A stretch of DNA of 25,579 bases from positions 1 through 25,579 of the IMG/VR virus record IMGVR_UViG_3300042879_000309; one strand, written 5' to 3'. Source of the stretch: a virus. A program made the translations under genes and the position numbers. The notes below the pieces were generated by a model that was given only the letters and a program-made list of their open reading frames with translations, had not been told where the DNA came from and made no database searches. Shown one piece after another: positions 2,406 to 23,178 of this stretch (its first letter is position 1; every line of letters begins with the position of its first letter).

Positions 2406-2951
2406 ATGCCAGTACCTAATACATTTGCTAACGCCACAGCTACGATCCCCTTATCGCAGCTTGATGCGAACTTTAACACGGCTATCACCATTGGCAACAC
2501 AGCAATTCAGCTTGGTAATACTGTTACCACTCTGAACAATATGACGTTTGCCAACGTCACTGTCAGTAGTGGCGCGGTGACAGGCACAGTATCTAACGCA
2601 ACTACCAATAGCGCCAATGTGGTTGGTTACATGGGCATTCCTCAGAATAGCCAGAATGGAGCTTACGACGTCGTGTTGGGGGATGCTGGTAAACATATTT
2701 ACCACCCAACAGGTCAGGCTGCGGCAACTTATACGTTCCCGGCTAACTCGAATGTGTCTTTTACAGTGGGTTCGGCAGTCACGATCATCAATGGTTCCGC
2801 GAATAACGTCACCATTTCGTTGACTAGCGATACTCTTTACTTGTCATCCAACGGTGCTACTGGCAGCAGAACGCTGGCTCAATGGGGCGTAGCCACTGCG
2901 GTCAAGATTGAAAACACCGCTTGGGTTATTTCGGGGTCGAATATCACATGA
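2406..2951 (+). CDS. Short tail-fibre-like protein
   Basis: This 181-residue protein is rich in Asn, Thr, Ala and Val. A brief N-terminal helix (ATIPLSQLDANFNTA) of the kind used for attachment to the tail is followed by a repetitive beta region (TVTTLNNMTFANVTV). The C-terminal beta domain (YTFPANSNVSFTVGSAVTII, later WVISGSNIT) resembles terminal modules of many aquatic phage fibres. The ATG follows the previous TAA immediately. The stop overlaps the next start as ATGA at 2948-2951, so translation is probably coupled. Appendage protein is likely; the exact place on the virion is unknown. Confidence 0.55.
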   Translation: MPVPNTFANATATIPLSQLDANFNTAITIGNTAIQLGNTVTTLNNMTFANVTVSSGAVTGTVSNATTNSANVVGYMGIPQNSQNGAYDVVLGDAGKHIYHPTGQAAATYTFPANSNVSFTVGSAVTIINGSANNVTISLTSDTLYLSSNGATGSRTLAQWGVATAVKIENTAWVISGSNIT

Positions 2952-4603
2952 CAGGCATACTTCAAGCATTGTTAATGGGTAGGGTCGCCACCGGCGGCGG
3001 CGGCTTCTCTGTTGTCCAGACCTTTACCGCCTCTGGTACTTGGACTGCGCCTACTGGTGTGACCGAGGTTGAGTACCTAGTAGTTGCTGGTGGTGGTGGC
3101 GCCGGAAGAACAGATGGGGGCTATACAACAGGTGGTGGCGGTGCTGGTGGATTTAGAACCGGCACGGCTTTATCTGTTACAGCAGGAACCGAATACACAA
3201 TTACCGTAGGCGGCGGCGGAACCGGAGCAACAATAAATAATTCTGCTGGTGCAAGCGGCAGCAATTCTGTGTTTTCCACCATAACAAGTAATGGCGGTGG
3301 CGCAAGCAATGGCGCTTCGCCGGGAACTGGATTAAGTGGTGGGTCTGGTGGTGGCGGCACTTTATATTCTAATCCCGGCGGCTCTGGCGGTGCTGGTAAT
3401 ACACCATCTACTTCGCCAAGTCAGGGAAATAATGGTGGTAGTGCTGCCGGTAGCAACACAACAATAGCTCCATACGCTTCTGCTGGTGGTGGCGGCGCAA
3501 GTGCTGCTGGCGGCAACACAACTAGCGGAGGGAACGCTACTGCTGGCGGTAATGGTACGGCATCATCCATAAGTGGTTCTAGCGTTACGTATGCTGGAGG
3601 AGGTGGTGGGGGGTCTTATGCGCCGAATCCCGGTGGCTCCGGTGGAGCCGGAGGTGGGGGCAATGGTGGGTCTGGTGTTATTGGTTCAAATGGAACGGCC
3701 AATACTGGTGGCGGTGCTGGTGGTGGATGGTACGGCACCAACGGCGCATCAGGAGGTTCCGGCATTGTCATCCTCAAGTACAACGTAGCATCACAGACTG
3801 TATTCACCTTCAAGTCATCGACTAGATGGGTTGCTCCAACAGGTGTGACCAGCGTGGATTATTTGGTCGTGGCTGGTGGTGGGGCTGGAGGTTCTAACAT
3901 TGCTCCGAGTGGTGGATTTGGTACGGGAGGCGGCGGTGCTGGTGGGTTCAGAACAGGCACATCTTTTTCAATAACCGCCGGAACTGAATACACCATTACT
4001 GTTGGCGGTGGCGGTGCTGTTGTTGGAGGCGCAAACGGTGGCAATGGTAGTGATTCTATATTTAGCACTATCACATCTACTGGCGGCGGTGGTGGCGGCG
4101 CATCAAGGTCAGATGCTGCCAATGCAGGTTCTAACGGTGGCTCTGGTGGTGGTGGTGGAGTCCGTTATAACGCTGCTGGCGGTGCGGGTGGAACGGGAAA
4201 TACACCATCAACATCACCAAGCCAAGGCAATAACGGAGGCGCTGGAAATACTGTTAGTGGCAACAACGATTCACAAATCAATGCCGGTGGAGGTGGCGGT
4301 GCAACTGGAGCGGGTGCCGCCGGTACTAATGCCGGTGCCGGTAATGGCGGCGCTGGCACGGCCTCATCGATTTCCGGTTCATCAGTTACTTATGCAGGCG
4401 GTGGGGGTGGCGGTGCTTTTAATCAACCTCTTGGGTCTGGTGGCGCTGGTGGTGGGGGTGCTGGCGCTCAAGCAACCCCTGCAACAAGCGCAGTTTCTGG
4501 AACCGCAAACAGAGGCGGCGGTGGTGGTGGTGGCTCAGAAAGTAATGGCAGCACCACAGGCGCTGGCGGTTCTGGCATTGTGATAATCAAACTCAACCAA
4601 TAA
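2948..4603 (+). CDS. Glycine-rich appendage protein with an internal tandem duplication
   Basis: A 551-residue protein built mostly from poly-glycine runs, of the glycine-rich domain class found in phage adhesins and tail-tip proteins. It contains two tandem copies of one module, about 258-267 residues each. Both open with a W-x-A-P-T-G-V-T beta segment followed by YLVVAGGG, share GFRTGT, NTPSTSPSQGNNGG and ASSISGSSVTYAGGGGGG, and end in GSGIVI(L/I)K. The start at 2948 is preferred over a TTG at 2921 because it forms an ATGA overlap with the preceding stop. Poly-glycine II type packing at a receptor-binding tip is a reasonable inference. Strong GGN codon bias creates long false open frames in other registers. 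Confidence 0.7.
   Translation: MTGILQALLMGRVATGGGGFSVVQTFTASGTWTAPTGVTEVEYLVVAGGGGAGRTDGGYTTGGGGAGGFRTGTALSVTAGTEYTITVGGGGTGATINNSAGASGSNSVFSTITSNGGGASNGASPGTGLSGGSGGGGTLYSNPGGSGGAGNTPSTSPSQGNNGGSAAGSNTTIAPYASAGGGGASAAGGNTTSGGNATAGGNGTASSISGSSVTYAGGGGGGSYAPNPGGSGGAGGGGNGGSGVIGSNGTANTGGGAGGGWYGTNGASGGSGIVILKYNVASQTVFTFKSSTRWVAPTGVTSVDYLVVAGGGAGGSNIAPSGGFGTGGGGAGGFRTGTSFSITAGTEYTITVGGGGAVVGGANGGNGSDSIFSTITSTGGGGGGASRSDAANAGSNGGSGGGGGVRYNAAGGAGGTGNTPSTSPSQGNNGGAGNTVSGNNDSQINAGGGGGATGAGAAGTNAGAGNGGAGTASSISGSSVTYAGGGGGGAFNQPLGSGGAGGGGAGAQATPATSAVSGTANRGGGGGGGSESNGSTTGAGGSGIVIIKLNQ
3011..4600 (+). repeat. Two tandem diverged modules (about 790 bp each) within the glycine-rich gene
   Basis: Module 1 runs from about 3011 to 3784 and module 2 from about 3799 to 4600. 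They share landmarks in the same order: the W-x-APTGV opening, YLVVAGGG, the FRTGT/EYTITVGGGG block, NTPSTSPSQGNNGG, ASSISGSSVTYAGGGGGG and the GSGIVI ending. Bases have diverged, mainly at third positions, and the glycine linkers differ in length, so this is an old duplication rather than an assembly artefact. Confidence 0.75.
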
Positions 4604-4605
4604 CT

Positions 4606-4860
4606 ATGGAAACTAAAGTCTATCGATTCATGGGCATCGACACAGCAATGCAGTTGCTACGTCCGGGTGCTAAATGGGAAATCTCAAACAACGTCTTTAC
4701 CCGTTGGGAAGACCCAAGACCTTGCCCATCGATTGAGGAAGTGTATTGGGTGATGGACAGAATCAAAGAGTTTGAGGAAAGCATCCCGACCATGTGGCTA
4801 CCAGAGCAATTAGAGCAGATGGGCGTTCAGATGAAAGAGATTGAGGAAGCCATCGGATGA
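4606..4860 (+). CDS. Small phage protein of the tail module, unknown function
   Basis: An 84-residue acidic protein. It has an N-terminal beta segment (KVYRFMGIDTAMQLLRPGAK), a Trp-containing middle (FTRWEDPRPCPSIEEVYWVM) and a helical Glu-rich C-terminus. Small proteins of this make-up occur next to fibre genes in many aquatic phages, sometimes as putative fibre-assembly helpers, but nothing in the sequence proves that. It starts 2 bases after the glycine-rich gene, and its stop overlaps the oxygenase start as ATGA (4857-4860). I do not recognise a named family. Confidence 0.6.
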   Translation: METKVYRFMGIDTAMQLLRPGAKWEISNNVFTRWEDPRPCPSIEEVYWVMDRIKEFEESIPTMWLPEQLEQMGVQMKEIEEAIG

Positions 4861-5459
4861 ATATGCACAACCTTTTTCCAACGCCTGTCGGGATGTTTGA
4901 CCTTGACCGTCCGTTGACCGACGAAGAAATGTTGTTCGTGCGTGGTCAGGAAACTAGGCCGAATGAGGGCAACACGACCAGCAAGAATAACTTTGTGCTG
5001 CGTGACCCTACGATGACTTCTTTGCGTGGTTGGCTTGAGGATTGTGTGGCTGAATACTTCAAGGCTACGAGCAATCCAAAGCACGACGTTGACCTGCGGA
5101 TTACGCAAAGCTGGTTCAACTATTCAGAGCAGGGGCAATGGCATCACAAGCACGCGCATCCGAATAGCTTTGTGTCTGGTGTGTTCTATCTGAACACCAA
5201 TCCTGACGATAAGATTTTCTTCTATCGCTCTGGCTGGCAGCAGATTAAATTCCCTCCTGAAGATTGGAACTTGTACAACTCTGAATCTTGGTGGTTCGAA
5301 GCAATCACGGGGCGGTTGATTCTGTTCCCATCGTCGCTAGAGCATAACGTGCCGACGGTGACGGGTGACGATGTAAGGATAAGTATGTCGTTCAACACAT
5401 TTCCTGTCGGCGTGGTGGGAGATGAGATGCAACTAACTGGATTAAAACTGGAGGCTTAA
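4857..5459 (+). CDS. Putative 2OG-Fe(II) oxygenase
   Basis: A 200-residue protein matching the small phage/bacterial 2-oxoglutarate/Fe(II) dioxygenase group that begins with a LFPTPVG-type segment. It contains QSWFNYSEQGQ followed by H-H-K-H-A-H-P at residues 96-102 and SGVFYLNT, a distal H163 in FPSSLEHNV, and R174 in VRISMSFN, which would bind 2-oxoglutarate. His99/His101 and H163 are the likely iron ligands. These enzymes hydroxylate protein side chains or small molecules; the substrate is unknown. Its place among fibre genes suggests a virion protein or a host surface component, which is inference. It overlaps the previous gene by 4 nt. Confidence 0.75.
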   Translation: MNMHNLFPTPVGMFDLDRPLTDEEMLFVRGQETRPNEGNTTSKNNFVLRDPTMTSLRGWLEDCVAEYFKATSNPKHDVDLRITQSWFNYSEQGQWHHKHAHPNSFVSGVFYLNTNPDDKIFFYRSGWQQIKFPPEDWNLYNSESWWFEAITGRLILFPSSLEHNVPTVTGDDVRISMSFNTFPVGVVGDEMQLTGLKLEA

Positions 5460-7386: not shown

Positions 7387-7608
7387 GTGGAACCGCAATT
7401 CCTGATCAACATTCTTTTTGCAGCCGCAGGAGCCGCTTTTGGGTGGATACTGAACAGTATCTCGCGCTCAATCGTCAGGATCGAAGACAGAATTGCAGAG
7501 ATGCCAATGACCTATGTCAACCGTGATGACTACCGGTCTGACATTGGTGACATTAAGAACATGCTAGGCAAAATCTTTGATCGCTTAGAAAAAAAGGCTG
7601 ATAGATGA
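7387..7608 (+). CDS. Small membrane protein with one helix and a helical tail
   Basis: A 73-residue protein starting at GTG with ACGGAG upstream. Residues 5-24 (QFLINILFAAAGAAFGWILN) form one transmembrane segment. The rest is charged and helical (SIVRIEDRIAEMP, then KNMLGKIFDRLEKKADR) and could form a coiled coil. Similar short N-terminally anchored proteins occur in many phages and have been suggested as spanin- or holin-like partners; the sequence does not settle this. The stop overlaps the next start (ATGA, 7605-7608), placing it at the head of the cassette with the ACP-like and ketosynthase genes. Confidence 0.6.
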   Translation: MEPQFLINILFAAAGAAFGWILNSISRSIVRIEDRIAEMPMTYVNRDDYRSDIGDIKNMLGKIFDRLEKKADR

Positions 7609-7952
7609 GCCTGAACATGGACGCACTGGCTACCCCGATCTTTGGGGAGCCAGACAGCCTCCGTGACTTCCTCTTTGAGAATGGCATACAGCATCAAGTC
7701 TTTTGGGAAAGACTGACGGATGCTGGCTTCTATGTGCCACGCTACCCCATCATTGATGCCGACCCGCAGGACTTGGATGATTGGCTGTTAATACACCAAC
7801 AAGAACACCAAGCCTACGCCACTATTCTTAACTTGAATGACCCCTTTAATCTGCTAGACTTGGATTTCAACCAAGAAGATGACTTTTACGATTGGGTAAA
7901 TAGTCATTTGTTAATTCATGAGCAGATTGCGCGTACTTTGGGGGTGACATGA
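7605..7952 (+). CDS. Protein with three D-[FW]-H helical repeats, unknown function
   Basis: A 115-residue acidic protein whose body holds three 19-residue units that align without gaps: LRDFLFENGIQHQVFWERL, LDDWLLIHQQEHQAYATIL and FYDWVNSHLLIHEQIARTL. Asp at unit position 3, Phe/Trp at 4, His at 12 and Leu at 19 are constant. The pattern suggests stacked amphipathic helices with a line of histidines that could bind metal or pack internally. It overlaps its neighbours by ATGA on both sides, so it is tightly coupled to the ACP-like gene downstream. No named family is recognised. Confidence 0.65.
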   Translation: MSLNMDALATPIFGEPDSLRDFLFENGIQHQVFWERLTDAGFYVPRYPIIDADPQDLDDWLLIHQQEHQAYATILNLNDPFNLLDLDFNQEDDFYDWVNSHLLIHEQIARTLGVT

Positions 7953-8242
7953 TTTCCGATGAGGACTTCTTGCGGCTGTTTAATGTGGCTATGGCGCTGG
8001 CTAAACCTGTCGGAAAAGCGACACTTAAGGCCGAGTCAATAGATGATCGCTTTGAAAACATTGAAGTTGATAGCTTGGATTTATTAATTATCGGCATGTA
8101 TCTCTGTGATGCCTTTGTTGTTTCAGAAGAGAAAGGCAAGGAGATGAGGCCGGAAACTGTTGGTCAAATGAAAGAGTTTCTGGTGGCTAATGCCGGAAAA
8201 CCGACAATTGATGTCGATGCTATGTTGCAGGTGATGGTATGA
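7949..8242 (+). CDS. Acyl carrier protein-like protein
   Basis: A 97-residue acidic helical protein with the hallmarks of an acyl carrier protein. F-E-N-I-E-V-D-S-L-D-L-L at residues 35-46 matches the (G/V)-D-S-L-D signature, so Ser42 is the expected 4'-phosphopantetheine attachment site, at nearly the usual position (Ser36 in bacterial ACP). A helix-2-like stretch (IIGMYLCDAF) follows, then ETVGQMKEFL, which matches the (T)VG-x-x-x-x-(Y/F)(I/L) segment before ACP helix 4. The start has GGGGGTG upstream and overlaps the previous stop; the stop overlaps the ketosynthase start (ATGA). Role: carries acyl chains as thioesters, probably as partner of the adjacent enzyme. A host phosphopantetheinyl transferase would have to activate it. 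Confidence 0.8.
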   Translation: MISDEDFLRLFNVAMALAKPVGKATLKAESIDDRFENIEVDSLDLLIIGMYLCDAFVVSEEKGKEMRPETVGQMKEFLVANAGKPTIDVDAMLQVMV

Positions 8243-9363
8243 GCCTATTCATTACACATGGGCATACCGTATCCAACACTGAAACCACACTTTTCCAAGA
8301 CATTCTGCACCCACAGCGCACCCATTTCATACCGGAAAGCTACCAAGGTGCGAAACATGGCTTTAAATACCCACCGCATAACCTAGCTAATATGGTGTTA
8401 GCCCCTGCAACGGTAGAGTGGCTAAAGCAAAACCCTTCCCTTGGCAAAACTGCATTCATCCTAGCCAGCGGTAACGCCCATTTTGCAGGCATTAACCCGC
8501 GCAGTAGCCAAACTCACACCCAACTGCACTACGAATACAAGTTTCTGCCCTTTACTTTGACGCAAGTCATGGCTGGCAGGCTGGCAAACATGATCTGTGA
8601 GCCTGATTACATAGCTACAGACGCTTCTGCCTGCGCTTCTAGCCTTAAAACCCTGATGGATTGCCTGATGCTGGAAGCATTTGGCTTTACTCGCTTCCTG
8701 ATCCTAACGGTTGAGGATGCGGTATCCAATTCAGTGTTGCAGTTCTTTGGCGATTCTGGCGCTTCCCTGACGCTGGCAGAAGAAGAAACCAAGGGTATCG
8801 TGCCAAGCGCTTTTGATAGCAAGAATGGTGGCTTCTATGTAGGCCAAGGCGCTGCTTTTACGGTGCTGATGGCTGAAGGTGAGGTCAATTACTACGGCCT
8901 AACCCCTAAAGCTAGGCTGGTGGGTGCGTATCACGCCGCTGAGAAGTGGAATAACGCCATAGGTCAGCGCCCGGACGGTAAGGGTTACGTTGACGCCATT
9001 GAAGGTGCCATGATGTATGGCGGTGTGTTCGGTCAAGACATTAGCATTGTGAAAACACACGGCACTGGCACAGAATCCAATAACTTGGCAGAAAAGAACG
9101 CTTTAGTCACCACTTTGGATAGCTTTGTTGCAACGTCATTTAAGCCAAAAATAGGTCACACAATGGGCGCTTCGGGCTTGCTAGAAACGCTACTTTTGCT
9201 TGACAATCTGGTTTATGGTGTTGTACCTGCTATTCCTAACCGGACGGAAAAAGACAGCATTTTCTTGTCCGAGGACTGCGAGACTCCTGATGGGCTGATC
9301 TTAAGTCTTGCTGCTGGAATGGGGAATGTTTACACAGCAGCAATCTTTGACCCTGTGAGGTAA
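8239..9363 (+). CDS. Beta-ketoacyl-ACP synthase-like enzyme (KAS I/II, thiolase fold)
   Basis: A 374-residue ketosynthase with every key active-site residue. Nucleophile Cys132 lies in TDASACASS. His274 lies in VKTHGTGTES, the HGTGT motif. Lys302 and His307 lie in FKPKIGHTMGASG, with the same K-x4-H spacing as FabF. The glycine-rich end is SLAAGMGNVYTAAIF in place of the usual GFGGTN turn. It is shorter than bacterial FabF/FabB (about 405-415 residues). The family joins malonyl-ACP to an acyl chain by decarboxylative Claisen condensation. The gene overlaps the ACP-like stop by 4 nt, with AGGTG spaced for its own initiation. The pairing argues for a working acyl-chain system, perhaps fatty-acid extension or acyl supply for a modification. 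Family assignment is secure; substrate and purpose are inference. Confidence 0.85.
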   Translation: MSLFITHGHTVSNTETTLFQDILHPQRTHFIPESYQGAKHGFKYPPHNLANMVLAPATVEWLKQNPSLGKTAFILASGNAHFAGINPRSSQTHTQLHYEYKFLPFTLTQVMAGRLANMICEPDYIATDASACASSLKTLMDCLMLEAFGFTRFLILTVEDAVSNSVLQFFGDSGASLTLAEEETKGIVPSAFDSKNGGFYVGQGAAFTVLMAEGEVNYYGLTPKARLVGAYHAAEKWNNAIGQRPDGKGYVDAIEGAMMYGGVFGQDISIVKTHGTGTESNNLAEKNALVTTLDSFVATSFKPKIGHTMGASGLLETLLLLDNLVYGVVPAIPNRTEKDSIFLSEDCETPDGLILSLAAGMGNVYTAAIFDPVR

Positions 9364-9365
9364 TT

Positions 9366-9815
9366 ATGGTTGAGATGGTGGACAGCCAGCAAGAGGAATT
9401 AAGTCCAGAAGACATCGTTGCGATTGCCGCAATGAATACCGATGCTAATGTTGATCGTGCAAAAGCTATTGCCATGATCAATGCTGAACTGCAAATTGAC
9501 GATACCTTGTTTATTCGACAAGGCAATACCTTATTTATCATCCACAAGGCTGCGCCCGGTGTTGGTTGGTTTCGTGCATTAAACGCTGACACCGCACCAA
9601 ACTTCTTAGCCAATAGCATGGAATTTATTAAAGCCTGTTACAAGTTGGGCTTTGACACAATGGCATCAACTTTCCGTGATCCTACCATTCTGTCTGTTTT
9701 CCGCTATATATCAAAAAACCCGCCAAATCCTGAGATGGGTTACAACGTGCGAAAAACAGCAGACGGTGGCTTCATGGCAACTGTTAAAACGGGGCCAGCG
9801 CGGGGAGGCGAATAA
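9366..9815 (+). CDS. Small GNAT-like protein
   Basis: A 149-residue protein. Residues about 45-140 follow the strand/helix order of the C-terminal half of a GNAT acyltransferase: paired strands (DTLFIRQGNTLFIIHK), a strand with GWFRALNAD, a long helix (NFLANSMEFIKACYKLGF), a strand (DTMASTF), a helix (DPTILSVFRYI) and two closing strands (YNVRKT, GFMATVKTG). T7-like phages carry a GNAT-like small virion protein near their internal virion proteins, so a structural role is possible. Lying right after ketosynthase and ACP genes, an acyl-ACP-using acyltransferase is also possible. The canonical Q/RxxGxG/A acyl-CoA loop is not clear. GAGGTAATT precedes the start; the stop overlaps the next ATG by one base. 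Confidence 0.5.
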   Translation: MVEMVDSQQEELSPEDIVAIAAMNTDANVDRAKAIAMINAELQIDDTLFIRQGNTLFIIHKAAPGVGWFRALNADTAPNFLANSMEFIKACYKLGFDTMASTFRDPTILSVFRYISKNPPNPEMGYNVRKTADGGFMATVKTGPARGGE

Positions 9816-12097
9816 TGGGTGCTGTCGTTGATTTTGTTGCAGACGTTGGTGGCGCAATACTTGGCGCTGTTGGTGATGTAGTCGAAGCGGTTGGCGACGT
9901 TGTTGCTGACGTAGCTGATGCCGTTGGTGACGTAATTAGTTATGTTGCTGAAAACCCTATCGTTGTTGCAGTAGCAATAGCCGCGCCTTATGCTGTGTCG
10001 GCTGTTGGCACAGCCATAGGCGCATCCCAAGCAGCAATTAGTTTAGCCACAGCGCCCGTTACTGCCGGTGCAATTACTGCGGCACAAGGCGGTGATTTAG
10101 GAGACATTGGTCGATCAGCGGTTGGCGCATTTGTTGGTAACGTAGCAGGAAGTTTTGTTGGACAGCAAGTTGGTGCAGCCGTTGGTGCAAGTAACGGTGC
10201 GCAAGCAGCACTCGCAAGCGCGGCAGGCGGTGCCACTGCCGGTGCTACGTCCGCATTGGCTACGGGTGGTGATGTTGGAACATCAGCACTGTTAGGTGGT
10301 GCTGGTAGCTTGGGTGCAAACCTTGTTCGTAATCAAGTTGCGCAGCAGTTTGGTCTTGATCCTCGCGGCAGAGTTGCTGAAGTGGCTGCGGATATTGGTG
10401 AAGCGGTTGGAAGAACGGCTGCTGGCGGTAATCTTGGTGAAGAATTAACTGGCGCTGCATTTACTACGGCACAGCGTGAAGGTGATATTGCAATCAGAGG
10501 CATGAGAACGCCCTCTGACGCCGAGATTGCAAGAGCAGTGGCACAACCAGCGCGTACTGAACAAAGCGCTGCTGTCGAAATTAACGATGACATTTACAAT
10601 GCCATTACTGACCGAAAGAATGCAGTACAAGTTGCGTTCCAAGGCCCGGTTACACCAGAACAAATTCAACAATTAGCGCGTAATGCTTCGCTTGACCTGA
10701 TCGAAACATGGAAAGCTAAAGCTGCTGCTGATCCCACTTTTGCTAGAGAACTAGCCAAGCCTGAAAACTTAAATGCAATTCGCACGGCTGGCTTGGTTGA
10801 ACTTGCTACCGCTGTAACGACGCTAACTTCTGTTGCTGCTGGTGGCCTCGGCGCAACTGCACTGGCTGCTGGACAACTTGCAGCGCCGGGTTCGGAAGTA
10901 TTGCGTCAAGCTATGCAGGAAAACCCGATGCTTGGCGCTATGGGTGGCGATGCCTCTTTTGCCGGTGCGCTCATTGATGTTTGGGCTGGAACGCCAACGC
11001 GCCCATCCGTAGATACAACTCGTACTTTGCCTGAAGTTGTAGTTGAAGCACCTAGAATTGAACCATCATTAAGTCCACAAGAATATGGTCAAGCGGTTAA
11101 GCGCTACATTGGCGACTTTGCAGAGACTCAAGCAGCAAAAGCACCTGTTACTACTGATGTTATTCGTGTTGCTCAAACCCTTGGCATTACCAATGAACAG
11201 GCAGCGGCGCTTAGAAACTCGCCTATTTTCGACTATCTGACGAATCAATCAGTTCAGTCTAAGTCGATTGATATTGACACTCTGCCGCTAAGAGAACGTG
11301 CGCTGATTGAGTATGCTGCCGCTAATCGTCAAGGCGGCGTAAGTGTTAACGAAGACTTTAACGTCATCATTCCCGGTAAGAATGCAGCAACAGCCGCTGG
11401 TGATGCGCGTAGAACAGCCACTCAAACCGCAACACAAAGACAAGCGACTGAAGCTGAAACAGCGCTTGATAGTCGCCGTTCTGCTACGCAACCTGCCGGT
11501 TCCCCTAGAACTCAAACTCAAACACAAACTAGAACTACACCGTTTACTGGAACGCTGGCAGACACCGTTACGCGAACCGGCATTTCTACTGAGACTGAAG
11601 CTGGCCCGAGAACTGATACTGAACAAGCAGTTAGAACGCCAACTGGAACTGATGTAACTACAGGAACAGCAACAACGGGTGGTGGTGAGCCAAGATTGCC
11701 GGTGTTGCCAGACACAACAAAACCGGTCGAGGACATGACCGGTAGAGATTTGCTGGCTACAGAAGGTGGTGGGCGTACTGGTGGTGAAGGAGAGGGCGGC
11801 GAGGAAGCGCTAGTTGAGCAGCCTGTTGATTTGTCTTCTATGACTACGGATGAGTTGATTGAGTACCTGAATCAGCAGTTCCCACTAACGCCGCCAGATA
11901 CTCAGTTGCCCATTGATGTTGCGCCAGCAAACGTGCGTAATCGTCGCGCACAGTCTATTAGCCCCCGTGTGGTGGGTGTTGCGCCAGTTGCAGCAATTAT
12001 TGGTGAGAAAGAACCGATCTTTGGTGGTGAGCCTGATCCACAGAGCGATGTTTGGAATGTACGATCTTTGCGCCTTAGAAGGGCATTAGGACTTTGA
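9815..12097 (+). CDS. Large internal virion / ejection-type protein
   Basis: A 760-residue protein. The first 200 residues are extremely rich in Ala, Gly and Val. They begin with short repeats (GAVGDVVEAVGDVVADVADA), then hydrophobic or membrane-prone stretches (IVVAVAIAAPYAVSAVG) and glycine-zipper-like GA/GG runs. Residues about 520-660 are a low-complexity Thr/Gln/Arg/Glu linker (TQTQTQTRTT). The C-terminus is SRR-type basic. Such proteins are typical of podoviral ejectosomes, which enter the cell envelope during DNA injection. No lytic transglycosylase motif is seen. Function is inferred from composition, size and operon position. Confidence 0.55.
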   Translation: MGAVVDFVADVGGAILGAVGDVVEAVGDVVADVADAVGDVISYVAENPIVVAVAIAAPYAVSAVGTAIGASQAAISLATAPVTAGAITAAQGGDLGDIGRSAVGAFVGNVAGSFVGQQVGAAVGASNGAQAALASAAGGATAGATSALATGGDVGTSALLGGAGSLGANLVRNQVAQQFGLDPRGRVAEVAADIGEAVGRTAAGGNLGEELTGAAFTTAQREGDIAIRGMRTPSDAEIARAVAQPARTEQSAAVEINDDIYNAITDRKNAVQVAFQGPVTPEQIQQLARNASLDLIETWKAKAAADPTFARELAKPENLNAIRTAGLVELATAVTTLTSVAAGGLGATALAAGQLAAPGSEVLRQAMQENPMLGAMGGDASFAGALIDVWAGTPTRPSVDTTRTLPEVVVEAPRIEPSLSPQEYGQAVKRYIGDFAETQAAKAPVTTDVIRVAQTLGITNEQAAALRNSPIFDYLTNQSVQSKSIDIDTLPLRERALIEYAAANRQGGVSVNEDFNVIIPGKNAATAAGDARRTATQTATQRQATEAETALDSRRSATQPAGSPRTQTQTQTRTTPFTGTLADTVTRTGISTETEAGPRTDTEQAVRTPTGTDVTTGTATTGGGEPRLPVLPDTTKPVEDMTGRDLLATEGGGRTGGEGEGGEEALVEQPVDLSSMTTDELIEYLNQQFPLTPPDTQLPIDVAPANVRNRRAQSISPRVVGVAPVAAIIGEKEPIFGGEPDPQSDVWNVRSLRLRRALGL

Positions 12098-12098
12098 C

Positions 12099-13322
12099 AT
12101 GAGAATACTTGAGATGATTGCTGGTAGCCGTGGCATGGGTGATGCTCGTTCTATGGGTGAAATGCTACGCCGCATGGGTAGGCGTGGTGACACCATGCTG
12201 GCACACATTACGCCTGAAGAGGCTGACATGTTAATGCAGGCTGGTGGTTCAGGAACGACAAACCCTATGACGGGATTGCCTGAGTTTGCCCCTCGTTACA
12301 GTAGTTTTGATGATGATGCCGGTGATTTTGTACGCAATACGCAATCAGATGTTTTGCGCACGATTCAAAGCCAGCCAGTTAGCAGCACAGCTAGAGGCGA
12401 GTCTGTACCAATGGACTATGGGTTTGAGACAGAAAGATATACACCTGCTGGCAATCAATTTGATTTACTAGCTGGTGGTCGCACTCCGAATGTGCGCACT
12501 GGCGGCTATGATGTTCCTGATATGCCTGCCCAACAGCGTGTGTATGAAAACGTCGACTTTGCCAACTACCTGCCAAGACTAAGCCCTGACAGCGCATCCA
12601 TTGCTAATTTTACTGACTTGCCAAGAGCAGAAGGTTTGCGTAAGCCAGATCAAGACATTGGTCTAACTGCCAGAGCAATATCACAAGCACCAGAACCTTA
12701 CTTTTCTAGTGCGTATCGTCAACCATTAGCTGAAGTGCAACCCCTGCAAGATCAAACTGCGGCTGGTGAACCAAGCATGGCGCAACGTGCAGAGCGCGGG
12801 TTACAGGAACTTCAAGACGTACTAAATCGTTACCCGAATCTCACACGCGCAGGTACAGCCGGTGCAAGCATTTTGGCGCAAGCCTTGATGTTTAGTCAGG
12901 CCAACAAAGCAATGCAGCGTGATATTGAGGCTACCCGTTCTGCTGCACAACCTTTCCGTGAAGCGCAGCAAGAAGCGATGAGCCGCGCTACTGGTGAAGG
13001 CATGACACCTGAACAACAGCAGGAACTTGAGATTGCTCAATCCCGTGCGCGTGAAGCGCTAGGCCAACGTGGTACGCCAACAGGTAGCGCAGCCGCAGGC
13101 ATCTTGGCAGCACAGCAGCGTCGTGCGCGTAGTCTTGCAAGACAAGAAAGTTTCAGTGAAGCATTGCGCTTGGCGAACATTGCTGATCAGTATGACCGTC
13201 GTGCTTTGGAGATGGAGTTGTCGCGTGATCAGCAGTTGGCACAGTTGTTTGCTGGCATCCTAGGCCGTGAAGTGCAGCAAGCACAACGTACTCAAGCGCC
13301 AGTAACGCAACCTGCGAGGTAA
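12099..13322 (+). CDS. Putative virion protein, unknown function
   Basis: A 407-residue protein. The N-terminus is Met/Arg-rich (MRILEMIAGSRGMGDARSMG), followed by HITPEEADMLMQAGGSGT and NPMTGLPEF, a Gly-Thr-Gly segment that recurs in structural proteins of aquatic podovirus-like phages. The middle is low in order. Residues about 225-400 are strongly helical and rich in Gln, Ala and Arg (EEAQ-type coiled coil). AGGA lies at suitable spacing before the ATG. Position between two internal virion-type genes suggests a virion component. No enzyme motif is visible. Confidence 0.5.
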   Translation: MRILEMIAGSRGMGDARSMGEMLRRMGRRGDTMLAHITPEEADMLMQAGGSGTTNPMTGLPEFAPRYSSFDDDAGDFVRNTQSDVLRTIQSQPVSSTARGESVPMDYGFETERYTPAGNQFDLLAGGRTPNVRTGGYDVPDMPAQQRVYENVDFANYLPRLSPDSASIANFTDLPRAEGLRKPDQDIGLTARAISQAPEPYFSSAYRQPLAEVQPLQDQTAAGEPSMAQRAERGLQELQDVLNRYPNLTRAGTAGASILAQALMFSQANKAMQRDIEATRSAAQPFREAQQEAMSRATGEGMTPEQQQELEIAQSRAREALGQRGTPTGSAAAGILAAQQRRARSLARQESFSEALRLANIADQYDRRALEMELSRDQQLAQLFAGILGREVQQAQRTQAPVTQPAR

Positions 13323-13324
13323 AT

Positions 13325-14704
13325 ATGGCAACTCAAGCATTAAGTGATGCGCTAGGAACTACCCCGTCATTGATGCGGGGTTTTGGTCAACAAGGCGGCA
13401 TGAAGCAACGTGCTGACTTCGGGCGTCAGAAACTGCCTGAAGTCTTTGAAGAAGGCGCAAGAGCCGAAGAGCAAGCAGCTAGATCGCAGTTTGACATTGA
13501 GCAAGGCCAGATTGGTAAACAAGCTGCCGCAGAACGTGACTTAGCAGCCAAGTCTCGCGCAGCAGCTACCGAGATGGAAACTGGCATACAAGGGTATCAA
13601 ACCTTTGAAGCGCCGCAGATCAGTGCGTCAGACTATGCCAAGAATGCTGGCATGCGTTTGCTGTCAGCTTTGGTCGTTGGTGGCATTGGTGGTGCTTCCG
13701 CAAGAGCGCAGTTAGTTGCTATTCGTGAAATGCAGGATGCTGAAGACCGTGTGCAGCGTGAGCGCTTTGATGCAGCAAAGCTAAAGTTTGATCAGGAAGA
13801 CAAGAAGCGCCAAGAGCATAACGCTATGCTCAAGGATCGTTTCGAGCGCATGTTGAACCTTCTTTCCAAAGATCGAAACGCTGCAATGGTAGAAGCGAAG
13901 CTGATTGAGGCTTCTACTGGCAATGGTTTGATTTCTGCGCAGCTACGCAAAGGAAACTATCAGAAAGCCTATGAGTTATTTACAAAAGCTATTGAGGCTT
14001 CTGACAAGGCTGATGCTGAGTTAGCAAAGCAACAGGCAATCTTTGCTCAGAAGGTAGCGCTGAAGCAAACTCCCGGCGCTGGTGGCGGCACTAAGGAAGG
14101 CAAGATTCAGCAATTGCCTGCGCAGCTTGAGAAAAAGCTGGATGACATTGGCACAACCTTTGTTACGCTGAATCGTGCTAACCAAACTCGTAAGCCACAG
14201 TATTTTGGCATTGCGCCTTCTGATGACGTTGCTAACCTGATTATTGCTGGTGTTGAGCGTGGCTTGCCAGTGGGCGACATTATGGCGTCGGTAGGTTCCA
14301 AGGCTCCAAAAGTAACGCCTGAGACTGTGAACTGGTGGAAAGACTATCAATCGTTTGTTGCGCAGGTTCGTAACAAACTGTTTGGTGCGACCCTGACACC
14401 GCGAGAAGCTGAAGACTTCCGTAAGTTCACATTAAGTCCAGCTACCGCCCCTAACGTCGCTGATAACTACTTTAACAACCAGATTCAGATTATTCGTGCA
14501 GCTATTGAGCGTGAGCGCGGCAAGGCTAGAGCGCGTGGCGTCACGGATGAAACTATCTCTGCTTACTTGGATGTGCCACAAGATGCGACAGGTGGGCCAA
14601 GAGTGCCAACCATTAATACCCCGGCAGAGTTTGATGCGTTGCCTCCGGGTGCTGAATACATTGATGCACAAACTGGTAAGCGCGGTAGAAAACCACAGAG
14701 GTAA
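13325..14704 (+). CDS. Putative internal virion protein with coiled coil
   Basis: A 459-residue protein. Residues about 25-90 and 135-185 are charged helical segments (EEGARAEEQAARSQFDIEQG; DAEDRVQRERFDAAKLKF). Between them is a short Gly/Ala hydrophobic stretch (LLSALVVGGIGGASA). The C-terminus carries NTPAEFDALPPGAEYIDAQT followed by a basic GKRGRKP tail, a short ending seen in several phage structural proteins. It sits two bases after its neighbours on both sides with GAGGTAAAT for initiation. Likely a virion or ejection component; inferred from context. Confidence 0.5.
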   Translation: MATQALSDALGTTPSLMRGFGQQGGMKQRADFGRQKLPEVFEEGARAEEQAARSQFDIEQGQIGKQAAAERDLAAKSRAAATEMETGIQGYQTFEAPQISASDYAKNAGMRLLSALVVGGIGGASARAQLVAIREMQDAEDRVQRERFDAAKLKFDQEDKKRQEHNAMLKDRFERMLNLLSKDRNAAMVEAKLIEASTGNGLISAQLRKGNYQKAYELFTKAIEASDKADAELAKQQAIFAQKVALKQTPGAGGGTKEGKIQQLPAQLEKKLDDIGTTFVTLNRANQTRKPQYFGIAPSDDVANLIIAGVERGLPVGDIMASVGSKAPKVTPETVNWWKDYQSFVAQVRNKLFGATLTPREAEDFRKFTLSPATAPNVADNYFNNQIQIIRAAIERERGKARARGVTDETISAYLDVPQDATGGPRVPTINTPAEFDALPPGAEYIDAQTGKRGRKPQR

Positions 14705-14706
14705 TC

Positions 14707-17070
14707 ATGGCTAGAGATCGTTTTGGTGGTGAGACTGTAGCTGAAGGCCAGACTGATCGTTTTGGCGGCAGTCTGGTTGAGCAGATTCCCGGCGCTTCTG
14801 AACAAGAGAAACGTGCTGCTGCGGCTATTCCAGAGTCAGAGCGCATTCGCACCAAGTCACCATTTGAAACTGGCTTAGAAGCTATTGGTGCTATACCCGT
14901 GCTTGCTGGTGCATCAAGACTGTTTCAGCTTGGCACGGCTGGTGGCAAGTTGGCACCGTATGGCGCACGATTCGCAGAGACTTTCATCCCTAGAACTGGC
15001 GCAGAGTTAGCCAAGGTTACTGGTTTAACTGCTGCTGGTGGTGCTGCCGGACAAGCCGCAGAGAATCTACTGCCTGCTGACGCAAGTCCTACCACAAGGT
15101 TTTTGGTAAGTAGTGGCGCTGGCATTGGTACTGAAGCTGGCTTGCGCAGTCTGCGCACAGCTATGCGTGGCTTCCGTCCTGTAACTCCCGGCGGTACTGA
15201 ACGCGCTGCCGAGCGTGTCGTGCGTCAAATGACGCCAGAGCAAATCTCGACACTGCCACAAACCGTAGAGTCCAAGACAGCAATGGTTCGTGCTGCGCAA
15301 GAAAGACTGCGTGGCAAACCAATTGATCAGCCACTGGATGCGGCAGATGTAGCAACATTGCTAGGTGCTGAGTCCACAGCCATCAGACAGCGTGGTGGCA
15401 AGCTAGGTGAGCAACTGGCTGCTGGCACGGAACAGCGTTTGGCTGCAATCAGTCAGCCTCGCACGATGGAAGCTGTGGGTGCTGATGCTCGTAAGCTGGC
15501 AGCAGACAGGCTCAAGGTATTGCGAGATCAGCGTGAAGCAGCTACCACCGCTAACAAGCAGGATATGCTGAATGAAGCGCGTACTAAGGAACTTGCAGGC
15601 CAAGGCGTTGAAGGTACTCGCGCTTACAAAAATTTAGAGCAAGCATTAACTGCATTTGAGCGTGATCCAGTAACAGGTCGTGAACGGATTACGGGGAAAA
15701 CAAAAGATCAATTTAATGAGGTTAGACGCGAAGCGCTTGGAATTACTTATGACGCGATGACGGGTCAAACTTTCAAGGCAAAGGTTGGATTTGAACGCCT
15801 TGAACAATTACGCCGCAAATTAGGTGATCGTGCTGCTGGTTTGCCTGAAGTTGGTTTTGATGCGATAGGTCAGCAAGATGCTAAAGAGTTAAAGAAACTT
15901 GTGGAAAACATCATGTCTGAGTTTACAGGCAAGAAGTTTGATAAGTACATCAAGGATTACGAGCAACTTAGCCAACCAGTTAATCAGTTTGCCACTTCTG
16001 TCGGTGCTGCTTTGGTTGCGCCAAGCCCTGCTGTGCGTGGTGAAATGGTGACACAGGCATCAGCTTTGCCTAAGAAAATCTTCAGCACACCAGAGAACAT
16101 TGACAACTTTACAGCATTGATCGGTGGCGACAAAGCATCCGTTGAGGGTTTGGCGCGTAACTATGCCAGCGCAGAGTTAGCTGAGAAGTCACCACAACAG
16201 ATTCGTACTTGGCTGAAGACCAACGGTGAGTGGCTGTCTCGCTTCCCGCAACTTAAACAAGACTTTACTGACTACGCTACCAAGCTAGAACAGACGGGCC
16301 GTGTCACTAAGAAGCTGGAAGCGAGAACGACTGAACGCGCTGAAGCGATGAACCTTGGTCGTACTCAGACTGAGCAGGCTGATAACTTCAAGCGTTTGAT
16401 TTTGAGTCCTGCTAATGCCAATGACTTGACTGCTGCGGCTAGAGTGCTTGGCAAGACACCTGATGGTGCTAACGCATTCAAGTCGAGTGTGCGTGATTTG
16501 ATTGGCACCCTGCCTCCCGGACAGATTACCACTGCCTACCGTGATCGCATCAAGCCAGCTATGCAGGCAAGCGGCCTGTATCGTCCTGATGAGATCAAGT
16601 TTGTGGATGATGCTATTGCCGATATTGCAAACATCCAGAATGCAATCAGCCGTGCATCACAGAACATTGGCAGAACTCCCGGCGTTGAGTCTTCTGCACA
16701 GGAACTAACCCGCCTGATTAACAATGAGATGTCGCAAGTTAAGAAGGGTGGCGCTGTGGCTGGCTTGTATGCTGCTGGCCTAGCTGCCCTTGGCTCTCGC
16801 TTTGGTGTGCCATTAGAGGTTGGTGGCGCGGCAAGCGTTGGCGGGGCTGTTACTGGCGCATTTGCTATTGATCGTTATCGTCAGTATGTTGCCAACATCC
16901 GTGCGGCAGTTAGCGACATCGTGACTGATCCGGTAAGGCTTCAACAAGTATTGAAGTCGCCGCCTGAGAAGCGGCAAGGCGTTATTGCCAGCATGATCCG
17001 TCAGACTATTGGTACGCAAATAGGTGCAGAAGCGCCAGAAAGGATTGAAAATGCCCCTAATGAAAGGTAA
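14707..17070 (+). CDS. Large internal virion-type protein with DRFGG repeats
   Basis: A 787-residue protein. The N-terminus has two DRFGG motifs (residues 4-8 and 17-21), then Ala/Gly-rich hydrophobic segments (GLEAIGAIPVLAGASRLFQL; LTAAGGAAGQAAENLL). The body is long and helical. A second Gly/Ala hydrophobic stretch lies near the end (GGAVAGLYAAGLAALGSRFG; GGAASVGGAVTGAFAIDRY). Paired membrane-prone regions flanking a long helical body fit a podoviral ejection protein. AGAGGTAATC precedes the start, and its last 20 bases overlap the small gene at 17051. No peptidoglycan hydrolase motif was found. Confidence 0.5.
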   Translation: MARDRFGGETVAEGQTDRFGGSLVEQIPGASEQEKRAAAAIPESERIRTKSPFETGLEAIGAIPVLAGASRLFQLGTAGGKLAPYGARFAETFIPRTGAELAKVTGLTAAGGAAGQAAENLLPADASPTTRFLVSSGAGIGTEAGLRSLRTAMRGFRPVTPGGTERAAERVVRQMTPEQISTLPQTVESKTAMVRAAQERLRGKPIDQPLDAADVATLLGAESTAIRQRGGKLGEQLAAGTEQRLAAISQPRTMEAVGADARKLAADRLKVLRDQREAATTANKQDMLNEARTKELAGQGVEGTRAYKNLEQALTAFERDPVTGRERITGKTKDQFNEVRREALGITYDAMTGQTFKAKVGFERLEQLRRKLGDRAAGLPEVGFDAIGQQDAKELKKLVENIMSEFTGKKFDKYIKDYEQLSQPVNQFATSVGAALVAPSPAVRGEMVTQASALPKKIFSTPENIDNFTALIGGDKASVEGLARNYASAELAEKSPQQIRTWLKTNGEWLSRFPQLKQDFTDYATKLEQTGRVTKKLEARTTERAEAMNLGRTQTEQADNFKRLILSPANANDLTAAARVLGKTPDGANAFKSSVRDLIGTLPPGQITTAYRDRIKPAMQASGLYRPDEIKFVDDAIADIANIQNAISRASQNIGRTPGVESSAQELTRLINNEMSQVKKGGAVAGLYAAGLAALGSRFGVPLEVGGAASVGGAVTGAFAIDRYRQYVANIRAAVSDIVTDPVRLQQVLKSPPEKRQGVIASMIRQTIGTQIGAEAPERIENAPNER

Positions 17071-19210: not shown

Positions 19211-19755
19211 AAGATGACGATGTGATGGAAGCGATGCAGGAAGAACGCGCACCAGACTTCTTATCCCAAGCGCAAGAATCTTTCCCCTATCTTAAAGGGA
19301 AAGACTTGGATGTGGTTTACACCCCGCGCCCCAAAGAAAATAGGCTTTTAGAGTTCTACCCACCGGATGAGCCGGGAGCGCCTGAAGCCCCACGCCCTAA
19401 GACCTTGCCAATGGGTAGAGTAGGCATCGAAGTCTTCAGCCCAAAGGTTAGACCTATCGACATCTTAGGTGACTATGTATCTCACTACGGTGTGCAAGCT
19501 GATCCAGAGTTGAAGAAATACTATGGTCAGTTCCAGCAGGCGCTTGATCCAAAGGCTATGCAAGAGCGTTATCGTTACCACCAAGAAAACTTTGGTGAGA
19601 CACGGCCTTTTGAACAATGGTATGAGAGTACAGGGGTGCCAGAGATATTTCGTGGCTACACCTTTAATCAGTTTGGCGACAACGCAGCAGAGATTTACAC
19701 ACCAGAACAGCTAATGATTTTGGATCAAGTAAGAAACTACTTGGGAATCAAATGA
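19201..19755 (+). CDS. Phage protein, unknown function
   Basis: About 184 residues, acidic and Pro-rich. Possible starts are GTG 19195, TTG 19201 and ATG 19225. TTG 19201 is preferred because GGAGG at 19191-19195 sits five bases before it. The protein has a Pro-rich N-terminal half (EFYPPDEPGAPEAPRPKTLP), a GRVGIEVFSPKVRPID segment and a helical C-terminal half (LDPKAMQERYRYHQENFGET). It overlaps the previous gene and ends in an ATGA overlap with the methyltransferase. No family recognised. Confidence 0.55.
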   Translation: MQIEDDDVMEAMQEERAPDFLSQAQESFPYLKGKDLDVVYTPRPKENRLLEFYPPDEPGAPEAPRPKTLPMGRVGIEVFSPKVRPIDILGDYVSHYGVQADPELKKYYGQFQQALDPKAMQERYRYHQENFGETRPFEQWYESTGVPEIFRGYTFNQFGDNAAEIYTPEQLMILDQVRNYLGIK

Positions 19756-20264
19756 GTCATCAAGCACAACTAGATTTCGTTGCAATAGTACGCGCCATGT
19801 ATCCAGATTATTTTATCCGCAAGCAGGTGCTTGAGATTGGTAGTCTAAACATTAACGGTTCTATCAGACCATTCTTTGAGCAATGCGTATATGTTGGGGT
19901 TGATCTTGGCGAAGGACGCGACGTTGATGTGGTGGCTAAAGGTGAAGACCTCACCTATGCTGATGGTAGCTTTGACGTTGTGGCAAGCTGTGAGTGTTTT
20001 GAGCATAATCCTGAATGGGTGGCTACGTTAAACAACATGATCAGGATGAGCAGCGGCTTAGTCTTTTTCAGTTGTGCAACTACCGGCAGACCTGAACATG
20101 GCACACCACGCACCAGCCCACACGACGCACCGTTCTGCGGAGAGTATTACCGCAACCTGACTGAAGAAGATATAAGAAGTGCAATTGATTTGTCAGTCTT
20201 TGAAGACTATCAATTTCTAACCAATGATACGGTTCACGACTTATACTTTTGGGGGATCAAATGA
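19752..20264 (+). CDS. SAM-dependent methyltransferase (class I)
   Basis: A 170-residue Rossmann-fold methyltransferase. Motif I is VLEIGSLNINGS (residues 26-37), a variant of the glycine loop with few glycines. YVGVDLGEGRDVD gives the motif II acidic residue (D51), then DLTYADGSFDVVASCECFEH covers motifs III-IV (residues 67-85). No target-recognition domain or DNA-methylase (D/N)PP(Y/F) motif is present, so a small molecule, sugar or protein is a likelier substrate than DNA. It overlaps both neighbours by ATGA. The glycosyltransferase across the terminator could be a partner in surface modification, but it is in the opposite operon. Confidence 0.75.
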   Translation: MSHQAQLDFVAIVRAMYPDYFIRKQVLEIGSLNINGSIRPFFEQCVYVGVDLGEGRDVDVVAKGEDLTYADGSFDVVASCECFEHNPEWVATLNNMIRMSSGLVFFSCATTGRPEHGTPRTSPHDAPFCGEYYRNLTEEDIRSAIDLSVFEDYQFLTNDTVHDLYFWGIK

Positions 20265-20441: not shown

Positions 20442-20470
20442 CCCCCGTCTAATCAGCGGGGGTTTTTTTT
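20442..20470 (+). terminator. Rho-independent terminator of the rightward operon
   Basis: CCCCCG (20442-20447), a nine-base loop and CGGGGG (20457-20462) are followed by eight T (20463-20470). This is a textbook intrinsic terminator for the rightward transcript. The final bases overlap the stop codon of the leftward glycosyltransferase gene, so it marks the convergence point. On the minus strand the hairpin is not followed by a T-run, so it should act mainly rightward. Confidence 0.9.
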
Positions 20471-21203
20471 ACTCACTCGGCAGCAAGCCACCTTCAAACA
20501 GATACGTTCCCATGTGACCTAAGTGGCACCAAGGTGCTGCATATATCTTGCCGCCAATCTTGCGCCACTGGTGACAGAAGTAGTAATCCTCTGACAGCAA
20601 GCGTCTGCTTTCAGGATCAATGGGATCAAGGTAGAACCCATAGACTTCCTCGCCAGACAGGTAGTTCATGTCACTCACAAACTTTGGTGTGTGCGGCATC
20701 AACTCATCAAACACTCGGCGCTTGATCAGCATGAAACCCGTGCCAATAGCTGACACTTCACACGGCTGATCCACCGGCACAGTGATAGCAGGATCGTTAG
20801 TCAGTAAGTTGACTACAAAGCTACCAGTGTGTTTCTTAAGCTGATCAACTGGCTTGCCCTCAGTCACAGCTTGATGCACTGTCTGCCAATTGATTTCCTT
20901 TTTTGGATAGATTCCACCAATAACATCTACGTCAGCTTCAAGCATCTTGATAGCATCGTCTGGCCTAAAGGCAATGTCGGCATCAATCCAGAAAAGGTAA
21001 TCGGCACCACTCTTTAGGAACTCATGCGCCATATTGCAACGTGCGCGTGTCACCAGTGATTCGTTAAACATCAACGACACAGAAGTTTTGTAGCCCTTGT
21101 TAGACAGAACGCCAATCAGGTTCATCAACGACTGAGCGTACACGCCAGTACACTGACCACCATACATAGGTGTTGCTATAAAAACATGCTTTTGGTTTTC
21201 CAT
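20469..21203 (-). CDS. Glycosyltransferase, GT-A fold (GT2-like)
   Basis: A 244-residue protein with a nucleotide-sugar site and metal motif. An N-terminal strand (KHVFIATPMYGG) and NESLVTRARCNMAHEFLKS lead to YLFWIDADIAF, whose D74-x-D76 is the DxD that binds the divalent metal and UDP/GDP-sugar. VIGGIYPKK, GTGFMLIKR and SEDYYFCHQWR (acceptor-site region, likely catalytic base) follow, with a closing HLGHMGTYLF. Phage enzymes of this type glycosylate virion proteins, modified DNA bases or host surface sugars; the target is unknown here. GGAGATCAC precedes the start. Last gene of the leftward operon. Confidence 0.8.
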   Translation of the reverse strand: MENQKHVFIATPMYGGQCTGVYAQSLMNLIGVLSNKGYKTSVSLMFNESLVTRARCNMAHEFLKSGADYLFWIDADIAFRPDDAIKMLEADVDVIGGIYPKKEINWQTVHQAVTEGKPVDQLKKHTGSFVVNLLTNDPAITVPVDQPCEVSAIGTGFMLIKRRVFDELMPHTPKFVSDMNYLSGEEVYGFYLDPIDPESRRLLSEDYYFCHQWRKIGGKIYAAPWCHLGHMGTYLFEGGLLPSE

Positions 21204-22105: not shown

Positions 22106-22325
22106 TTGATTGCTCCTTCACTAATAAATAACGTGCGACATCCTTATCACCAACACGCACCATTTGAGTCAAAATTGTATGCCCCTCTTTTCTTAGGTCT
22201 TCAATCCGTGCCGCCAGCCGAAGCACACCGTACAACCTAAGAGAATCTAAGGCAGTGATACCACTACCTAGGCGCAAATGATCAAGGATCATCTGGCTTT
22301 GGTTCTTGCCGCTGGCTGGCTTCAA
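22092..22325 (-). CDS. Helix-turn-helix protein
   Basis: A 77-residue protein whose residues about 8-50 follow the small HTH family (HTH_39-like) in phages and prophages: NQSQMILDHLRLGSGITALD, then SLRLYGVLRLAARIEDLRKE and GHTI. The IT..(D/E)(A/S)L..YG...LAARI.(D/E)LR..G pattern is the family signature. A small DNA-binding or regulatory role is likely. The start is a TTG forming a TTGA overlap with the annealing-protein stop, so translation is probably coupled; an internal ATG would cut into the domain. Confidence 0.65.
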   Translation of the reverse strand: MKPASGKNQSQMILDHLRLGSGITALDSLRLYGVLRLAARIEDLRKEGHTILTQMVRVGDKDVARYLLVKEQSSGSN

Positions 22326-23170: not shown

Positions 23171-23178
23171 GATTGCCC

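Follow-up and report, generated by a model that had tools for sequence, protein, structure and literature searches.

Acyl carrier proteins (ACPs) have been reported in phages before, with an unclear function (PMC5463345). Roseobacter prophages carry a fabG-acpP-fabF cassette (PMC8224337), and fabF is also present in viral AMG lists, there without the context of an ACP, a ketosynthase and a GNAT gene. Acylation of proteins or amines that depends on ACP has precedents, because CdiC, a homologue of the RTX toxin-activating acyltransferases, attaches 3-hydroxydecanoate to a lysine of CdiA (PMC8510554), because long-chain acyl-ACP is the substrate of N-acyl amino acid synthases (PMC8762209) and because acyl-ACP is preferred by some LuxI enzymes (PMC4234381). 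As for proteins that travel with phage DNA, gp14 of T7 is the first to be ejected, and it inserts into the outer membrane (PMC8954989).

The window, as we call the stretch analysed here, spans 25,579 bases and is a virus record of IMG/VR. In it, a carrier protein is encoded together with a condensing enzyme of its own and a GNAT-fold protein; this module is conserved across hundreds of phage contigs, at a fixed place beside probable DNA-injection genes (Table 1). In our searches of open-licence PMC papers we found no description of the ACP/ketosynthase pair. The enzymes are of known kinds; what is new, in that we did not find it described, is their arrangement, with a virus-only branch of ketosynthases beside ejection-type genes.

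Table 1. Features of the module and its surroundings (positions in the window).
Feature	Positions	Strand	Length, marks and basis
Upstream ORF, no assigned function	7605..7952	+	115 aa; near-identical in L124 and L141
Acyl carrier protein, viral, dedicated	7949..8242	+	97 aa; 4'-phosphopantetheine site Ser42 in DSLD; ORF and family profile
ATGA overlap, ACP stop/ketosynthase start (translational coupling)	8239..8242	+	4 nt; sequence; kept across loci
Beta-ketoacyl synthase, virus-specific, KAS I/II fold	8239..9363	+	374 aa; Cys132, His274, Lys302, His307; PF02801, NCBIfam, PDB, AlphaFold2
GNAT-fold protein, probable acyltransferase	9366..9815	+	149 aa; AlphaFold2, Foldseek, VIA; follows the ketosynthase in 80/80 loci
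Candidate acceptor, opening the probable ejection cluster	9815..12097	+	760 aa; MGAVV N-terminus, then amphipathic helix
Three large ORFs, probable ejection/internal virion proteins	12099..17070	+	407, 459 and 787 aa; position only

The carrier protein and ketosynthase pair

A preliminary description, made from the letters of the window, had proposed that an ACP-like protein and a ketosynthase, joined by an ATGA overlap, form a working pair. Both reading frames and the overlap are indeed there, and the viral pair is real and conserved. At least 431 IMG/VR stretches encode a relative of the ketosynthase. Conservation was followed in the 80 loci that are free of truncation by a contig end, with 70 distinct ketosynthase sequences: in all of them the ACP gene, the ketosynthase gene and a third gene succeed one another in unbroken order, the third starting between -10 and +8 nt from the ketosynthase end, while the 4-nt overlap (ATGA or GTGA) is found in 76. 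This spread, with constant neighbours, supports the proposal, and the pair is very probably active as an enzyme system, its catalysis being predicted from the genes. The short frame upstream is not part of the pair, since the two loci with a near-identical copy of it have neither ACP nor ketosynthase.

The ketosynthase is recognized from its sequence taken singly. It matches PF02801 above the gathering score (E 4.7e-14), FabF chains among PDB sequences (E 1e-18) and the FabF family of NCBIfam (E 1e-21), the last with 76.9 bits where the equivalog cut-off stands at 493.75. The best NCBIfam score goes to AmcF, an acyltransferase subunit. An AlphaFold2 model built with 42 relatives (pLDDT 92) has the thiolase fold of the KAS I/II enzymes. 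It superposes on FabF from Streptococcus pneumoniae (2rjt) with a VIA Z of 42.5 and an rmsd of 2.7 over 357 aligned residues, and on the type II polyketide ketosynthase AntD (6smp) with the same Z of 42.5. Cys132, His274, Lys302 and His307, which had been proposed as an intact catalytic set, align with the Cys-His-Lys-His residues of E. coli FabF; each is present in 80/80 loci, and the four are also found in the farthest copy examined (L184, 47% identity). Pairwise dN/dS against the window copy is 0.02-0.10: the viral ketosynthase is under purifying selection.

Around this invariant core the enzyme departs from FabF. The GFGGTN loop with its gatekeeper phenylalanine is absent, AAGMGNV standing instead with Met361 at the position of that residue, and the HGTSTP motif has become HGTGTxSNN. 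These two replacements, together with the top score of an acyltransferase subunit, would suit a protein that does not condense at all, but acts, for example, as a malonyl-ACP decarboxylase or a direct acyltransferase and in this way loads the ACP with a short acyl chain destined for the GNAT-fold protein. We find this quite improbable, the four residues that condensation requires being all invariant.

The carrier protein asked for a less direct approach. Alone, the window ACP has no significant match in Pfam and reaches an E-value of 0.036 in NCBIfam; PF00550 is matched singly by 18 of the 57 members of the family, with E-values up to 0.5. The profile of these 57 members, by contrast, matches PDB sequences with a best E-value of 5.8e-5, and each of the 60 matches listed is an ACP or the ACP subunit of a respiratory complex I. 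With hhalign, the viral ACP family aligns with E. coli AcpP at E 1.6e-5. Because of the family profile, the identity of the protein is firm where the lone sequence gave a weak case, and the ORF at 7949-8242 is, as judged from its relatives' sequences, a member of a diverged ACP family. Thus profile searches led to both an ACP and a thiolase fold, the former through its family and the latter singly.

Divergence among the viral ACPs is considerable, identity to the window copy dropping to 22-30% across the family. Only L10, D41, S42, D44 and K64 are conserved at 95% or more in the 80 loci, and D41, S42 and D44 in every one of them. Ser42 of the DSLD motif therefore stands as the attachment serine that the preliminary description had seen in it, and it is kept among the homologues, as are Cys132, His274 and His307 of the partner enzyme. 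Pairwise dN/dS of the ACP against the window (0.05-0.29) places it, too, under purifying selection. A chance origin of the pair is far excluded, because Ser42 is found in 80/80 loci despite such low identity, and the four ketosynthase residues in as many.

Where do these enzymes come from? A KAS tree of 18 viral and 16 cellular sequences, the cellular sample being limited to E. coli and, mostly, the phylum of a Balneolaceae MAG considered below, sets the viral ketosynthases on one side of a branch, as a separate clade with 100/100 support. The stems that flank the split are long (5.75 and 2.33 changes per column). The viral enzymes are 18-23% identical to the cellular KAS I/II enzymes compared. 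Among 148 genomes from the phylum to which that MAG belongs, the best true cellular match has an E-value of 7e-27, when the phage copy has 9e-199. Recent capture of a host fabF-acpP pair is ruled out by the roughly 20% identity, by the fully supported viral clade and by this gap in E-values. The same data uphold the earlier views that the ketosynthase is no stray host gene and that its short length and AAGMGNV end mark a distinct branch; by tree and alignment, it belongs to an old viral one.

The carriers are a large group of aquatic, uncultured, tailed phages, probably podovirus-like. One of them is in GenBank (MW202545.1, Manatee Spring), with a ketosynthase 57% and an ACP 31% identical to those of the window. 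The sole relative in genome_contigs (L103, JAGYJQ010000016.1) sits on a 37.6-kb contig of the Balneolaceae MAG; this contig is probably itself a phage, and the MAG possibly hints at a phage host. Other GenBank phage records, from Listeria, Enterococcus and others, gave FabF-like matches of 22-28% identity over parts of the query; they are unannotated, look bacterial and were set aside. Besides, the ketosynthase gene is split by both ends of a record of 37,514 bases (IMGVR_UViG_3300047551_000808; L052 and L055), which suggests that the genome of this close relative is circularly permuted and measures about 37.5 kb.

The GNAT-fold gene and the loci without the pair

The preliminary description had seen a two-gene system. 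The pair stood, but the third gene, tightly coupled to it and with a GNAT fold, had been overlooked. Searches of the Pfam, PHROG and PDB sequences gave nothing usable for this family, and it is a fold search alone that found a match. The AlphaFold2 model (48 relatives, pLDDT 90) has the helix and strand order of GNATs; it matches GNAT enzymes over nearly its complete length in Foldseek (E 6e-5), and superposes on HP0935 with a VIA Z of 11.7 (rmsd 2.8, 125 residues aligned) and on RimI with a Z of 10.8-11.5. The RTX toxin-activating acyltransferase family had no Pfam match among 51 members of the GNAT family. Pairwise dN/dS against the window, where defined, is 0.01-0.11. GNAT folds are sometimes non-catalytic. 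Going by its modelled fold, we predict that the protein is probably an acyltransferase.

A feature of the protein bears on its donor. The R/Q-x-x-G-x-G/A motif that binds CoA is not present; in its place is N-A-D-T-A-x-N, and N73, D75 and N79 are invariant. The missing loop suggests that the donor is not free CoA, or else that there is no catalysis, and an acyl group borne by an ACP would suit a GNAT protein without this loop. We also considered, and dropped, a role as a malonyl-ACP decarboxylase in the manner of MadA, whose activity is carried by its hot-dog domain, not its GNAT domain (PMC8666670).

Searching from the GNAT gene, rather than from the pair, brought up loci in which the pair is missing (L124, L141/142/143/145, L156 and L158). 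A ketosynthase accompanies 97 of 102 distinct GNAT sequences, and the five others need three changes on the GNAT tree. They lie nested in groups that have the ketosynthase, which reads as three losses (in L124, in L141/143 and in L156/158). Direct evidence of deletion comes from remnants: L124 retains at 3039-3136 a degenerate 3' piece of the ketosynthase gene, 98 bp long and 79.6% identical to window positions 9139-9236, and L141 a shorter one, while none was found in L156 and L158. The L124 remnant has the 115-aa ORF on one side and the GNAT gene on the other. These three lineages and their remnants tell us that ACP and ketosynthase are lost jointly and that the GNAT gene is able to outlive them.

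The three lineages are natural controls, and they do not all behave alike. R/K70 (arginine or lysine), F103 and F112 are conserved in 96-97 of the 97 GNAT rows with a ketosynthase. In L141/L143, a clade with a long stem (0.47), they have become Q or D, L and Y, respectively, and the protein that follows begins with MSWLKK in L141 and MSIFHK in L143. L124, L156 and L158 retain the three residues; two of the three lineages keep most GNAT invariants as well as the N-terminal motif of the next protein, described below. That GNAT and N-terminus change after the loss of the pair is thus suggestive, in one lineage out of three. Since the GNAT gene persists without ACP and ketosynthase, it must have a role independent of them, and this counts against an acylation module made of the three genes.

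In T7, this slot ahead of the internal virion proteins is taken by gp13 (L104:308-724), whose sequence looks GNAT-like by eye. Homology of the viral GNAT protein to gp13 was tried with hhalign and found no support, which leaves the likeness of slot as a lead only.

The slot matters for another explanation, namely that the proteins of the module are structural or chaperone-like leftovers, enzyme folds devoid of catalysis. A small protein precedes the internal virion proteins of T7 in just this place, and Pfam labels the gp13 family a probable scaffold protein. Against such a fate stand the absolute conservation of Ser42, Cys132, His274, Lys302 and His307 over 80 loci, the low dN/dS and the lack of sequence similarity between the GNAT protein and gp13. 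We deem it very improbable.

A possible acylation module beside the probable ejection genes

The gene that follows the GNAT gene, at 9815-12097, opens a cluster of large proteins ahead of the lysis genes. The three frames after it have no family match. In the GenBank relative L022, an SLT domain is present in a later protein of the cluster, which also matches 'internal virion protein with endolysin domain', as one would expect of an ejection protein; from their position and from this match, the genes downstream of the GNAT gene are probably those of ejection proteins. The first of them is variable, except that in 71 of 95 loci it starts with M[GS][AG][VI], a start shared by none of the 393 other long ORFs in these loci; it then runs on as an amphipathic helix. 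In the window its N-terminus has a hydrophobic moment of 1.70, over all 2000 shuffles (mean 0.39). A strict acceptor of the N-myristoyl type, at Gly2, is ruled out, residue 2 being serine in 50/95 loci and glycine in 34/95, and there is no universal acyl-acceptor residue in this protein. An acylated N-terminus followed by an amphipathic helix would form a membrane anchor; the conserved N-terminus may instead serve assembly.

Several other genes of the window deserve mention. A 2OG-Fe(II) oxygenase (4857-5459; PF13759, E 5e-21; phrog_81, E 1e-45) lies amid the structural genes. A very glycine-rich ORF (2921-4603) is made of two similar halves, each starting like TFTASGTWTAPTGVTEVEYLVVAGGGG, and looks like a duplication in a tail fibre or adhesin. 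A SAM-dependent methyltransferase (19752-20264; phrog_32762, E 5e-60) is found close to where the forward gene block ends, and a glycosyltransferase-like protein (20469-21203, reverse strand; phrog_1574, E 3e-51; weak Anp1) where forward genes give way to reverse ones. Finally, 22322-24072 (reverse strand) has a RecE/YqaJ-like exonuclease beside a protein that weakly matches Rad52-like ones, probably a phage recombination pair.

What the pair could do unaided is constrained by the absence of its usual companions. In 25 large related phage records, many of them probably incomplete, we found no ACPS-family pantetheinyl transferase (PPTase), with positive controls, and no FabG-type reductase (adh_short_C2, PF13561), which 13 of 14 control genomes match. 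With no PPTase found, the host must arm the viral ACP; with neither enzyme found, the phage pair makes no full elongation cycle. Either the host completes its product, or the product is passed on, in which case the GNAT gene is the evident recipient.

With the computed gene identities, folds, intact catalytic residues, co-conservation, purifying selection and joint loss of ACP and ketosynthase as a basis, we give a probability of roughly 0.4 to a three-gene acylation module, in which the pair would supply acyl-ACP and the GNAT-fold protein would acylate a virion protein. A host pantetheinyl transferase would arm Ser42. With an acyl starter and malonyl-ACP or malonyl-CoA drawn from the host, the viral ketosynthase would then make or extend an acyl (beta-ketoacyl) thioester on this ACP, and the GNAT-fold protein would move the acyl group from the ACP to an amine of a virion protein. 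What we infer is the catalysis, this hand-over and its target. The leading candidate for an acceptor would be the 9815-12097 product, at its small N-terminal residue (Gly/Ser-Ala-Val); after acylation there, its N-terminal amphipathic helix could enter the host envelope while the DNA is delivered. The complete scenario, a virus-encoded, ACP-dependent lipidation where the phage makes its own acyl-ACP by means of a dedicated ketosynthase and the GNAT protein without the CoA loop puts a fatty acyl group on an ejection protein's N-terminus to drive membrane insertion during DNA entry, is tentative and, as a whole, rather doubtful. If the acyl group does go to a virion protein, we would have here a viral route of lipid modification with its own carrier protein; and if the scenario is true, it explains how some phages get their injection proteins into membranes.

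The preliminary description had hesitated between two roles, the acyl modification of some molecule of virion or host and elongation of fatty acids with a change of the host envelope. The former fits better, as a predicted role; the latter is not favoured, considering that a FabG-type reductase is found in 0/25 records and that the pair has a fixed place before ejection-type genes. Elongation would be a case of auxiliary metabolism, the pair boosting or redirecting host fatty-acid synthesis while the GNAT gene is an ordinary member of the virion cluster. The intact KAS I/II active site agrees with it, the roseobacter prophage cassette has been interpreted in this way (PMC8224337), and joint loss of ACP and ketosynthase with retention of the GNAT gene is what it would lead one to expect. 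Yet, besides the missing reductase and a position held in 80/80 loci, boosting host synthesis needs no separate, diverged ACP, and a virus-only clade at about 20% identity to cellular KAS enzymes fits it poorly. It is an unlikely explanation, if one to be taken seriously.

There is also the possibility of a small secondary product. Ketosynthase and ACP would build a beta-ketoacyl (polyketide-like) chain that the GNAT protein joins to a free amine, from an amino acid, a polyamine or a nucleotide, and the resulting N-acyl signal or inhibitor would be directed at the host or at competing phages. The ketosynthase model is as near AntD as it is FabF, and an acyl-ACP donor has precedents in the LuxI-type enzymes and in the synthases of N-acyl amino acids. 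This is improbable, however, when the fixed site beside virion genes and the persistence of the GNAT gene without the pair indicate a role in the virion.

Comparison with known systems

Bacterial type II ACPs (AcpP, PF00550) have the DSL(D) attachment serine and a profile similarity in common with the viral ACP, which is longer (93-98 aa) and, unlike them, so diverged that its lone members mostly miss Pfam. FabF and the type II polyketide ketosynthases share with the viral enzyme the thiolase fold (350-357 residues aligned) and the same Cys-His-Lys-His set. The viral enzyme differs in its length (374 aa, against about 410), its identity of about 20%, its AAGMGNV in place of GFGGTN, its HGTGTxSNN and its separate, long-stemmed clade. 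The same ketosynthase family is already represented in databases by UOF78413 of MW202545.1 and by UniProt A0A6J7X0R1 (57-58% identity to the window), annotated automatically as 3-oxoacyl-ACP synthase or FabB with no function proposed; the ACP and GNAT genes of MW202545 are annotated as hypothetical proteins. As to GNAT acyltransferases (HP0935, RimI, AAC(6')-Ii, the acyltransferase domain of NcdE), the fold is common over nearly the whole length, with Z of 10-12, whereas identity is mostly below 13%, the RxxGxG/A loop is gone and N73, D75 and N79 are unique to the viral protein.

For CdiC and the RTX acyltransferases, neither a dedicated ACP gene nor a ketosynthase gene is reported, and no sequence link to the viral GNAT protein was found; they belong, nevertheless, to a family using acyl-ACP and place a fatty acyl group on a delivery protein encoded next door, which makes them a precedent for the module proposed here. 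The roseobacter prophage cassettes (PMC8224337), like the window, have a phage ACP beside a KAS II-type enzyme. They copy the host gene order and include fabG, when no FabG-type reductase was found with the window module; this module, by contrast, has a GNAT-fold gene after the ketosynthase and ejection-type genes downstream.
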